Source: Myxococcota bacterium | GTDB lineage: Bacteria; Myxococcota_A; UBA9160; SMWR01 | Reading direction: 5' to 3' | NCBI GenBank assembly: GCA_039030075.1 | Contig: JBCCEW010000006.1 | Coordinates: forward strand, 1 to 64,000 | Length of the DNA stretch: 64,000 nt | Shown here: piece after piece, positions 41,119 through 45,678 of the stretch | Layout: the number at the start of each line of letters is the position of its first letter | Position numbering within the stretch: position 1 is the first letter of the stretch | The notes under the pieces: model-generated | Databases searched by the model: none | Seen by the model: the letters and a program-made list of their open reading frames with translations, nothing else | What the model was told of the DNA's origin: nothing | Position numbers and translations under genes: made by a program

Positions 41119-41439
41119 TCAGGCCGCGGCTTTGTCGAGCAGGCGCTGGAGTTCGCCGCTCTCGTACATCTCGATCACGATGTCGCAGCCGCCCTGGAAC
41201 TCACCGCCCACATAGAGCTGGGGAATCGTCGGCCACGACGAGAACGCCTTCACGCCTTCGCGGATTTCGGGGTCTTCGAGCACGTTCACCGTCTCGTACT
41301 CGGGGAGCAGCTGATCGAGGATCTGAACGACCGTTGCCGAGAACCCACACTGCGGCATGTGGCGGTGCCCTTTCATGAAGAGCAGGACCGGGTGGTCCTG
41401 CACGAGGGCGGCGATGCGGCTGCGCATGTCTTCGTTCAT
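41119..41439 (-). CDS. grxD: monothiol glutaredoxin, Grx4/GrxD type
   Basis: A 106-residue glutaredoxin with the monothiol active site CGFS at residues 31-34, the glutathione-binding WPTIPQLY and GGCDI motifs, and a KGHRHMPQ loop. Such proteins carry and deliver Fe-S clusters. GGAGG precedes the ATG, which shares an ATGA overlap with the Rrf2 gene stop; the two are one operon. The pairing suggests Fe-S homeostasis. Confidence 0.94.
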
Positions 41440-41936
41440 TGCGGGTCCTCCTTCGGAGTCGGCAGGGCGGTGAGTGGGGTGAGCCGCGACGGGTCGAGCC
41501 AGTGCAGCATGCTGCGCTCGTCGCGTTGAAGGTCGGCGAGGGACACGCCCTCGAGGGTGTCGCGCAGGGCCGCCTGGATCGTGCGCCAGAGCGCGCGGAG
41601 CGAGCAGTCGCTGCTTCGTACGCACTGGGGCTGCTGGCCGCCGTGGCAGGCGCAGAAGGCTTCGGAGAAGAAGGTGCCCCCGAGGACCTGGAGCGCGTTC
41701 CAGACGCTGATCTCGCGGGCCGGTCGCGCCAGACGGTAACCGCCGTCGGCACCGCGCACGCTCTCGACCAGCTTCCCGATCCGCAGCTCGCGCATCAGCT
41801 TCGCCGTGTACTGCGGCGAGAGCCCCTCGGCTTCGGCGATCGCGGAGATCGAGACCGGGGTCGCGTCGGGCCCGCCCGCCCGCGCCACTTGGAGCAGGCA
41901 GCGAAGGCCGTACTCTTCACTGGCCAGGAGCTGCAC
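41436..41936 (-). CDS. Rrf2-family (IscR-like) transcriptional regulator
   Basis: A 166-residue regulator. The winged helix reads [14 protein letters not shown]...[41 protein letters not shown]. The cysteine cluster region has CACHGG, QCVR and DCSLR, compatible with a [2Fe-2S] cluster. A GTG start at 41936 matches the family N-terminus. It is coupled to grxD and divergent from moaA, so it probably regulates its own Fe-S operon. It differs from classic IscR in having four cysteines in this stretch. Confidence 0.9.
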
Positions 41937-42022: not shown

Positions 42023-43096
42023 GTGCCTCCCCACACCGAGCCCTCCGAAACCCCCGCGTCCGCGTCGCCCGGTGCGCCGGCCCGAGACGCCCTGGGCCGT
42101 CGCCTGCACGACCTGCGGATCTCCGTGACGGATCGCTGCAACTTCCGCTGTCCCTACTGCATGCCTGCGGAGATCTACGGCGAGAAATATCAATTCCTGC
42201 CGCGGCCCCAGCTGCTGCGCTTCGAGGAGCTGGAGCGCCTGGCGCGCCTCTTCGTGGAGCTCGGGGCGGAGAAGATCCGCATCACCGGGGGCGAGCCGCT
42301 GCTGCGCACCGGCCTGCCCGACCTGATCGCCTCGCTGCGCGCGATCGAGGGGCTTCAGGATCTGACCCTCACCACCAACGGCTACCTGCTTCCGAAGCTC
42401 GCCCAGCCCCTCGCCGACGCGGGCCTCCAGCGGATCACCGTGAGCCTCGACAGCCACGACGAGGCGATCTTCCGCAAGATGAGCGGCCGCGACTTCAGCC
42501 CGGCGCGGGTTCTCGAGGGCATCGACGCGGCGGCCGCCGCCGGGCTGCGCCCGATCAAGATCAACTGCGTCGTGCAGAAGGGCGTGAACGATCACCAGAT
42601 CGTCGAGCTCGCCCGCCACTTCCACGGCACCGGCCACATTCTGCGCTTCATCGAGTTCATGGATGTGGGCACGCTCAACGCCTGGGACCACTCCCAGGTG
42701 GTGACCGCCCAGGAGATCGTCGAACGCATCGACGCGGCCCTTCCCTTGGAGGCCCAGGACGCCAACTATGCCGGTGAGGTGGCCCGGCGCTGGCGCTACC
42801 GCGACGGCGGCGGAGAGATCGGCGTGATCGCATCGGTGTCCCAGCCCTTCTGCGGCGACTGCACTCGCGCGCGACTCACCATCGAGGGCCGCCTGGTCAC
42901 CTGCCTCTTCGCTGCGGGGGGCGTCGATCTGCGCGGCCCGCTCCGCGACGGCGCCAGCGACGACGAACTGCGCGAGCGGATCGCCGACGTCTGGCACGCC
43001 CGCCGGGATCGCTACTCGGAGGAGCGTGCCGGGCTCGGCCCGGCGGACGCGTCCCGACCCCGCCCGAAGATCGAGATGTACCAGGTCGGCGGTTAG
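42023..43096 (+). CDS. moaA: GTP 3',8-cyclase, molybdenum cofactor biosynthesis
   Basis: A radical-SAM enzyme that converts GTP to the precursor of molybdopterin. The SAM cluster ligands are Cys39, Cys43 and Cys46 (CNFRCPYC); the C-terminal cluster ligands are in [20 protein letters not shown]; and the essential terminal GlyGly (QVGG) is present. At 357 residues it is slightly long because of a 20-residue N-terminal extension. GTG 42023 is the likely start. The stop overlaps the convergent desaturase stop. It fits the window's tungstate transporter and molybdopterin enzyme. Confidence 0.95.
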
Positions 43097-44082
43097 CGCT
43101 CGACGGCTCGCAACGGAGCCAATGCGCGTTCGAAGCCTGGCGCCTGCGAACGGCGTGGGGCGTTTCCGCGCGACCACGCTCGCAGGTCTCGTACGAGTCC
43201 AAGGCGCTCGAGCGCGAGCAGCATCGTCCAGCCCAAGTCGAACTCGCTCGGTTCCACGCCGAAGCGCGCGGAGTCTGGATGCGCGTGGTGGTTGTTGTGG
43301 AATCCTTCGCCGAAGGAGATCCATCCCAGCAACAGTGAGTTCGTGCCGACCTCGGTCGCGCCGGCGATATCGAAGCGCGATCGGCCGTGCTTGTGGGTCC
43401 AGAAACCGATGAACCAGTGGCCCACCACGCCGCCCGCGACACGAGCGGGACCCACCACCAAGGCCGTCTCCCACCCCCAGGTGCCGCCGACGAGAGCGAA
43501 GCCAAGGATCGGCCAGATCCACCACGTGCGTTCGCAGAATCGCAGGAACGGGTCGGACTCGATTTCCGGATCGAGCTCGTACCGGTCCCAGGACGCGGGT
43601 ACGAAGCGGAAGTGCAGATTCCACAGGAAGTCACGCAGCAGGCTGTGTCGATACGCGAAGTAGCGCGGGCAATCGCTGCGGTTCTGCCAGTAGTCGCGAA
43701 CGTGGTGGAGACGAATCCACGACAGGGGGCCGCCCAGACCCGTTAGCAGGAACAGGGACACCAGGAATCGCTGGAAGAATCGTGAGGTTCGATAGGTCCG
43801 ATGGATGATTCCCCGGTGCAGGCCTACCGAGTGCCCCAGACAAAGTGTCGGAAGCGTGAGCAGGCAGGCCGCCAGGGCGTCCCCGATGGCGATACCTCGA
43901 GCCAATACGACACCGGCGGCCACCAGATGAAGCCAGAGCCACAGGGACTTCCCGGGAGCGAACTCGATGCGACCGATGGATCCCGACGCCGCAGCGCCGC
44001 CGTTCGTGACGGGTTGCAGGGCGTCGCGCGTCAGCGCGCTCGCGGGGTGTTCTAGACGGTGGGAAGTCGCGCTAGGCATCAT
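43093..44082 (-). CDS. membrane fatty-acid desaturase (acyl-CoA delta-9 type)
   Basis: A 329-residue integral membrane di-iron desaturase. The three histidine boxes are HSVGLHR (His84, His89), RLHHVRD (His126-127) and HNNHHAHP (His262, His265-266), with the extra His222 in GHWFIGF. Several hydrophobic segments flank them. It should unsaturate acyl chains for membrane lipids. It overlaps the upstream GbsR-type gene by 11 nt, so it is cotranscribed with its probable repressor. Two tandem ATG codons start it (44082, 44079). Confidence 0.9.
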
Positions 44083-44602
44083 TTCCTTCCGCTCCGAACT
44101 GGCTCTTCAAGAGTGCGATCATGGCGGCCGAGGCCATTGGGTTGTCGAGAACCTCCCGTCCCAGGCGGTCGACGGTGCGTAGGTACTCACCGATCGCCGC
44201 CAGTCGCGCGGCCCGCTCTGGGTCGTCGGCCTGCTCGGAGAGCGTTGCGAGGGCATCGAGCGCCTGATGCACGACGGGATCGAACTCGCGTCGCTTGCGC
44301 TCGCGGGCGATCGCGAGGGTTTGCTCGAAGAGATCGCCGCGGCTCTCGTAGTAGTCGCACCGGTCGCCTGGGCGCGACGACCGCTGCACGACTCCCCAAC
44401 CGCGCAGCTCCTTCAAGCACATGCTCACGTTGCCCCGGCTCAGCCCGAGCCTTTCCGAGATCTCCGCTGGCGAGAGGGCGTGGCCCGAGCCGATCAGGAG
44501 CCCGCTGATCCGTGCGGTCGATGGGCTGAAACTGAACAGCCCCGCCATCGATGCCCAGGCATCGACGAACGCGGCTTCCGCAGATTCGGCAGTCGCTGAC
44601 AT
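44072..44602 (-). CDS. GbsR/MarR-type transcriptional regulator of the desaturase operon
   Basis: A 176-residue regulator with a winged helix (ISGLLIGSGHALSPAEISERLGLSRGNVSMCLKELRGWGVVQR) typical of the GbsR family, followed by a helical domain. The ATG at 44602 is chosen because the palindromic operator and promoter lie directly upstream; a longer in-frame reading would run through them. It overlaps the desaturase gene and probably represses both by binding the 26-bp palindrome 9 nt upstream. The effector may be a fatty acid or acyl-CoA, which is inference. Confidence 0.88.
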   Translation of the reverse strand: MSATAESAEAAFVDAWASMAGLFSFSPSTARISGLLIGSGHALSPAEISERLGLSRGNVSMCLKELRGWGVVQRSSRPGDRCDYYESRGDLFEQTLAIARERKRREFDPVVHQALDALATLSEQADDPERAARLAAIGEYLRTVDRLGREVLDNPMASAAMIALLKSQFGAEGNDA

Positions 44603-44608
44603 GCAGTC

Positions 44609-44637
44609 ACTGTATTTCAGAAATTTCTGAAATACAA
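44609..44637 (-). promoter_or_regulatory. perfect 26-bp palindromic operator within the gbsR-desaturase promoter
   Basis: Positions 44611-44636 form an uninterrupted inverted repeat: TGTATTTCAGAAA then its exact complement. A -35-like TTGTAT (44632-44637) and a -10-like TACAGT (44609-44614), both on the minus strand, lie exactly 17 bp apart and fall over the palindrome's ends, so a bound dimer would block RNA polymerase. The -10 ends 6 nt before the ATG, suggesting a leaderless transcript. Confidence 0.85.
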
Positions 44638-44892: not shown

Positions 44893-45678
44893 ATGGCGTT
44901 CCCTCCGGCACTGTGCCGACGCTCTTCTGTTTCGACACGCGGATCTGTCACGACTGGCCTGGTGGGCCTGGTCGCCGCGTGTCTGCTGGCTCCCGGCGCG
45001 GCCTCCGCGGCCACGACCCTGGACTTCGAGTTCCTGCTGAACGGCGAAGCTGGGCCCTACGTCGTCGTCACCCCCGACGGCACCGTCACGATCTCGGGCT
45101 CGGGCTCGAACCAGGGCGTCGCGGCCTTCGACACGAGCGACCCCGGCCCGAACGCCGGTGGCGAGGACACCGACCTGCTCGTGAACTCGGGCCTCGCGCT
45201 GATCCTGCAGGACGACAACGAGCCGACCCAGACCACCTCCGGCATCTTCGACGTGCCGGACGACGACGCGAACGGCGGCACGATCAGCTTCGTCTTCTCC
45301 CAGGCGGCGCAGCTCTTCTCGCTCGACCTGATCGACATCAACGGCAACGGCCCGGCCACCGTCACCCTCACCGACGGGGGAGGCAACAGCCGCATCTACG
45401 ACGTGCCCTTCGATTGGACCGGCGACATCGCCCAGGGCGCGATCGGCATCCAGACCCTCGACCTCACGACGCTCGCCGCTCAGGTGGGTGTGGGTCCCGG
45501 GAATCCGCTGGCCACCGCGTCCCAGGATGCCGGCTTCGACGATACCGGTGTCGTCCAGCTCGACGTGTTCTTCGCCGGCTCGGCCGCCCTCGACAACCTG
45601 GTCTTCGTGCCCGAGCCCAGCACTGTGCTCCTGGTGGGGCTGGGCCTCGGGACTCTCGCGCTGCGCCGCCGCTCCTAA
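44893..45678 (+). CDS. PEP-CTERM sorting-domain protein
   Basis: A 261-residue secreted protein. The signal peptide ends near residue 40 (GAASAA). The body is Asp/Gly/Asn-rich and beta-like, without cysteine after the signal region. The C-terminus is the exosortase sorting signal: VPEPST, a hydrophobic helix LLVGLGLGTLAL, then RRRS. It would be cleaved by an exosortase and displayed with exopolysaccharide; no exosortase gene is in this window. AAGGAG lies before the ATG and a sigma-54 site upstream. A strong terminator follows. Confidence 0.9.
   Translation: MAFPPALCRRSSVSTRGSVTTGLVGLVAACLLAPGAASAATTLDFEFLLNGEAGPYVVVTPDGTVTISGSGSNQGVAAFDTSDPGPNAGGEDTDLLVNSGLALILQDDNEPTQTTSGIFDVPDDDANGGTISFVFSQAAQLFSLDLIDINGNGPATVTLTDGGGNSRIYDVPFDWTGDIAQGAIGIQTLDLTTLAAQVGVGPGNPLATASQDAGFDDTGVVQLDVFFAGSAALDNLVFVPEPSTVLLVGLGLGTLALRRRS

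Follow-up and report, generated by a model that had tools for sequence, protein, structure and literature searches.

What is the role of a perfect 26-bp palindrome that lies immediately upstream of a gene for a GbsR-type regulator, which in turn overlaps a fatty-acid-desaturase-family gene? A first-pass annotation read the palindrome as the site of feedback repression of membrane unsaturation, a claim that combines a binding site, a binding protein and a signal. Here we take these components separately, using the whole 64,000-nucleotide stretch of DNA that was analysed (the window), its genome and relatives of the regulator. Our preferred reading, to which we assign a probability of roughly 90 %, is that the palindrome would serve as operator for the GbsR-type repressor whose gene immediately follows it, and that this repressor, by analogy with known systems, would autorepress the regulator-desaturase operon. 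The features of the locus are as follows.

43093-44082, minus strand: fatty-acid-desaturase-family gene (329 aa), overlapping the regulator gene by 11 bp, with GAAGGAA just ahead of ATGATG
44072-44602, minus strand: GbsR/MarR-type regulator gene (176 aa, winged helix-turn-helix), from Pfam and profile matches
44609-44614, minus strand: -10-like hexamer TACAGT, 4/6 matches to consensus, 6 nt ahead of the regulator ATG
44611-44636, no strand: perfect 26-bp palindrome TGTATTTCAGAAATTTCTGAAATACA, proposed operator of the GbsR-type regulator, from repeat and uniqueness analysis
44615-44632, no strand: conserved 18-bp operator core TTTCAGAAATTTCTGAAA, from relatives, alignment and phylum scan
44632-44637, minus strand: -35-like hexamer TTGTAT, 3/6 matches to consensus

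The palindrome and its promoter

The two arms of the palindrome (44611-44623 and 44624-44636) are complementary at 13/13 positions with 0 nt between them, exactly as first described. Arms of at least 13 bp are expected about 0.006 times in the window, the longest arm in 60 first-order Markov simulations of the window did not exceed 11 bp, and the runner-up perfect palindromes in the window have arms of 8 bp. At up to 3 mismatches, 44611-44636 is the sole copy of TGTATTTCAGAAATTTCTGAAATACA in the window. The palindrome is moreover an A/T-rich island, with 23 % G+C inside compared to roughly 65 % in the flanks. Its length relative to the simulations and its composition relative to the surroundings therefore indicate that it is not a chance feature.

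The minus strand carries TTGTAT and TACAGT at a spacing of exactly 17 bp, astride the palindrome centre. The first-pass annotation had the palindrome cover the gap between these hexamers; the spacing holds, but the palindrome enters both of them, including 5/6 bases of the -35-like and 4/6 of the -10-like hexamer, and the 4 bp by which each arm extends beyond the core overlap these hexamers. The promoter is weak: because the hexamers match the consensus at just 3/6 and 4/6 positions, the pair is unlisted in a sigma-70 scan at a 9-of-12 threshold. The regulator ATG at 44602 follows directly downstream with 8 nt between it and the palindrome, the 9 nt given previously counting to the A of the ATG. 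No Shine-Dalgarno-like sequence was found ahead of this ATG, and the regulator mRNA is therefore probably leaderless. A distance of 6 nt from the best -10-like hexamer to the ATG is also seen in two other regulator-desaturase pairs, from genomes G332 and G157. In the related genome G021, the ATG comes straight after a stop codon and the site is located further upstream; on these grounds we rejected an upstream TTG start (44650) that would make the palindrome part of the coding sequence.

The palindrome is located within a 290-bp divergent intergenic region, upstream of both start codons. This region is common to the divergent PEP-CTERM gene (44893-45678, + strand), which the operator might in principle control as well. 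However, the site lies about 257 bp from the PEP-CTERM start compared to 8 nt from the regulator, and the PEP-CTERM neighbour is absent from the relatives examined, making such dual control very improbable.

A GbsR-type regulator and its operator core

The assignment of the regulator to the GbsR family is borne out by matches to Pfam MarR_2 (3.2e-9, 37.3 bits for a cut-off of 27) and to the profile of MJ223 (1KU9), the template for structural models of GbsR (1.3e-18, positions 6-150 of 173, full-length similarity). Against the CudC/GbsR choline-responsive equivalog NF047500 the protein scores 29.7 bits, below the curated cut-off of 218. Its C-terminal half, which probably reads the signal, is poorly conserved, and a single-protein query of the genome contigs returned one distant relative only. 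The 11-bp overlap with the desaturase-like gene was recovered as well: the regulator stop codon (44072-44074) falls inside the desaturase ORF starting at 44082.

The closest link to a characterised system is to CydE, a GbsR-type repressor of cydEAB in Alishewanella sp. WH16-1 that protects TATTTCAGAAATTTCTGAAAGTTCA in its own promoter from DNase I (PMC6096048). Positions 44613-44632 of the window, 20 contiguous bp, are identical to this footprint, the whole 18-bp core included, and a search of published full text for the core sequence retrieved the CydE paper as sole match (PMC6096048). The core consists of half-sites TTTCAGAA with centres 10 bp apart. A CydE-type operator is characterised by the core TTTCAGAAATTTCTGAAA placed at the promoter of the operon that encodes the regulator, an arrangement present in the window operon. 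As in the CydE system, the repressor gene comes first in the operon it would control, and the autorepression described for CydE can be proposed likewise for the window regulator (PMC6096048). In contrast to the window operon, the targets of CydE are cytochrome bd genes, and sulfate relieves its repression (PMC6096048), while the window site, unlike the CydE operator, is symmetric over 26 bp and has a desaturase-like gene downstream. CydE also binds a second, unrelated sequence (PMC6096048), so the motif does not fully capture recognition.

Other members of the group show how far this resemblance extends. CioR of Chromobacterium violaceum, a cyd-linked GbsR-type MarR regulator, is reported to directly repress its own cioAB operon and, unlike the proposed window regulator, has cytochrome bd as its target (PMC11837568). 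GbsR and OpcR of Bacillus subtilis (PMC7396694) and OpuAR of Bacillus infantis (PMC6207618) belong to the same MarR-type repressor subgroup as the window regulator. Their operators are A/T-rich like the window site, with an inverted repeat in the case of GbsR, but differ from it in sequence and spacer; their inducers are choline or betaine, and their targets, unlike that of the window regulator, are osmoprotectant genes (PMC7396694, PMC6207618). B. subtilis GbsR acts as a downstream roadblock (PMC7396694), which is not the mechanism proposed here. The window site thus appears to be a known type of switch in a new place, its modest novelty being that the operator is kept while the controlled genes change.

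Taken as an operator for autorepression, the site is strongly supported by homology and by a footprint from another group. We infer that a dimer of the window regulator would bind the 18-bp core as TTTCAGAA-NN-TTCTGAAA, with the half-sites separated by one turn of the helix. Since the -35/-10 spacer is occupied by the operator, the bound repressor would block RNA polymerase at the promoter and silence the bicistronic regulator-desaturase operon including its own gene, that is, exert negative autoregulation. A putative inducing ligand or stress would release the repressor, whereupon the transcript would probably start, leaderless, at or beside the regulator ATG and the overlapping desaturase gene would be translated in coupling with the regulator.

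The first-pass annotation had suggested a genome search with the half-site. With the 18-bp core as query and up to 3 mismatches, the window site is the sole match in the 5.76-Mb genome, and the regulator therefore seems to control no operon other than its own. A second site obtained with a looser pattern was set aside as a chance match because it lies within an aminotransferase ORF. A weight matrix built from relatives only scores 37.2 bits at the palindrome compared to 9.5 bits for the next best site in the window. In a same-genus comparison aimed at recent insertion of the operon, the matching contig stops short of the locus.

Conservation of the core

The three regulators closest by protein (52, 45 and 43 % identity) have the upstream sites TTTCAGAACATACTGAAA, TTTCACAATATTCTGAAC and TTTCAGAAACATCTGAAC, and the motif stands just upstream of the start codon in 3/3 of the nearest regulator relatives in the same order (G021, G076 and G024). 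The first-pass annotation had named a lack of conservation at orthologous loci as grounds for refutation, and the site withstands this check. Among close or CydE-like loci, 13 of the 17 carry a site that matches at 12-18 of 18 bases (p<=0.013 against resampled upstream DNA), alongside the match to a published GbsR-type footprint; four of the 17 (L056, L058, L073 and L019) have no significant site. Among more distant loci of the FWGFKRNMGR-type subgroup, none of 21 exceeds 10 of 18.

The site-bearing loci include cyd operons of Rhizobium and Azospirillum as well as the two other regulator-desaturase pairs. In Rhizobium sp. WSM4643, a GbsR-cydDC-cydA cluster is preceded by a perfect 26-bp palindrome of its own, GTGATTTCAGAAATTTCTGAAATCAC, whose 18-bp core is identical to that of the window, and Azospirillum thermophilum has TTTCAGTAATTCCTGAAA ahead of GbsR-cydAB. 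At the G332 and G157 pairs, a degenerate form of the site overlaps the promoter. Alignment of the relatives reveals conserved half-sites, with variation in the central two bases and in the outer 4 bp of each arm; thus the conserved unit is the 18-bp core.

The motif was also located independently of any protein search. An exact scan for TTTCAGAANNTTCTGAAA across 379 genomes of the phylum yielded 9 places compared to 0 for a reversed-pattern control, and 8/9 adjoin a GbsR-type gene. The remaining match, in G214, falls within an ORF that has no neighbouring regulator gene.

These observations bear on whether the palindrome could instead be a structural element such as a terminator, attenuator, RNA hairpin or cruciform, as a perfect inverted repeat might suggest. 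The repeat has no loop, 23 % G+C and no T-run, no terminator-like site was found there, and it lies between two divergent genes, ahead of the start codon of each. What is conserved is sequence, in the TTTCAGAA half-sites, while the outer arms and centre vary, and its occurrence tracks GbsR genes. We consider a purely structural role extremely improbable.

Several further arrangements were observed among relatives. One locus (L061/L085, G365:C32) has two operator copies, a 15/18 match before the regulator and an exact TTTCAGAANNTTCTGAAA after it, ahead of the next gene, which encodes a small membrane protein with no Pfam match. A GbsR subgroup with the signature IEHWGFRKxLGR (L086-L090, four families of the phylum) combines an exact upstream motif with a polyprenyl synthetase-like neighbour, Pfam-checked in L086 only. 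GbsR-type genes on two Methylobacterium plasmids (L069 and L070) and a Novosphingobium plasmid (L071) have a different operator layout with half-sites TGACAGAAA; the probable ATG is at the centre of perfect palindromes of 36, 34 and 18 bp, respectively, for example TGTCTGTAATTTCTGTCATGACAGAAATTACAGACA.

Controlled genes and the candidate signal

The genes downstream of operator-bearing regulators vary, comprising cytochrome bd, NAD-binding SDR, polyprenyl synthetase and, in G332 and G157, desaturase-family genes; in G021 a DUF805 protein gene follows the regulator. In the window there is no cydAB linkage: the next gene is of the desaturase family and the neighbours are moaA and the PEP-CTERM gene. 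The desaturase gene and moaA (42023-43096, + strand) are convergent with a 4-bp overlap at 43093-43096, and further along (41119-41936, minus strand) are an Rrf2-type regulator (166 aa) and then a monothiol-glutaredoxin-like ORF.

The desaturase-like protein is related to SCD1 (5.5e-7) and has histidine boxes 1 (HRGIIH) and 3 (HNNHH). SCD1-type acyl-CoA desaturases are defined by HxxxxH, HxxHH and HNxHH; the canonical box 2 (HRxHH in SCD1-type enzymes) is missing from the window protein, which has HHVRD there and so departs from this definition at box 2. The reaction itself is therefore uncertain. In the desaturases of the paired relatives, box 2 reads HHELRD or HHEVRD. More generally, a subfamily including the window protein (with L062, L063 and L078-L082) has HHVRD, HYVRD, HYLRD, HNTRD, HDQRD or HHExRD as box 2, and its boxes 1 and 3 look intact.

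Gene trees place the pairing in context. The regulators of G332 and G157 belong to a different clade from the window regulator, which groups with G021 and the SDR-linked regulators of the same order. Among the enzymes, the window desaturase clusters with the TetR-linked one of G117, apart from those of G332 and G157. With both genes in different clades, the association of the operator-regulator module with a desaturase probably arose more than once, or the partners were exchanged. The TetR-like gene that accompanies the G117 desaturase, the closest relative of the window enzyme, does not accompany the window desaturase itself; the desaturase relatives in G117 and G241 adjoin a TetR-type regulator instead of GbsR.

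Acyl-CoA-responsive repressors of desaturase genes, such as DesT, resemble the window regulator in its proposed target but are a different kind of regulator from the GbsR-type one. MadR is reported as another acyl-CoA-responsive repressor controlling a desaturase gene (PMC8872791). A literature search for GbsR together with desaturase returned nothing relevant.

The regulator could sense acyl-CoA or membrane fluidity and adjust the desaturase to hold unsaturation constant, as the overlap of the two genes and the recurrence of the pairing in two other genomes might suggest. Yet the signals reported for GbsR-type regulators are choline, glycine betaine, sulfate, zinc and iron, the operator also stands before cyd, polyprenyl synthase and SDR genes, which have no relation to desaturation, and the HRxHH box of SCD1-type desaturases is replaced by HHVRD in the window enzyme. 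The separate clades of the window pair and the other pairs further argue that regulator and enzyme did not evolve together as a unit. We regard such a lipid-feedback circuit as unlikely. Of the feedback repression of membrane unsaturation originally claimed, autorepression is thus well grounded, but the lipid or acyl-CoA signal finds no support and box 2 is atypical.

Desaturases are an oxygen- and metal-dependent enzyme type, and the signal may tentatively be sought in respiration, redox state or metals, along the lines suggested for CydE and CioR, with the desaturase among several membrane functions under this cue. Such a signal is compatible with operator-based autorepression and specifies it further. 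The operator is identical to that of cyd-linked GbsR regulators, zinc or iron is reported to abolish DNA binding by CioR (PMC11837568), and the other genes under the motif are respiratory or isoprenoid. The operator does not, however, determine the ligand, and the C-terminal half of the regulator is poorly conserved, leaving this proposal somewhat short of an even chance.

With autorepression at the operator as the preferred reading, a palindrome seen by eye becomes a testable operator with a named family of binding proteins. The lipid-feedback loop illustrates that a circuit should not be read from gene adjacency alone. The motif is precise enough, with eight of nine exact matches adjoining GbsR genes, to find targets of a poorly characterised regulator branch. 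More broadly, and with odds that we judge evenly balanced, a branch of GbsR-type autorepressors extending from Alpha- and Gammaproteobacteria to this phylum may have kept one operator while the attached genes (cytochrome bd, polyprenyl diphosphate synthase, SDR, desaturase) were repeatedly exchanged, and would thereby form a portable cassette that silences itself and serves membrane and respiratory functions.
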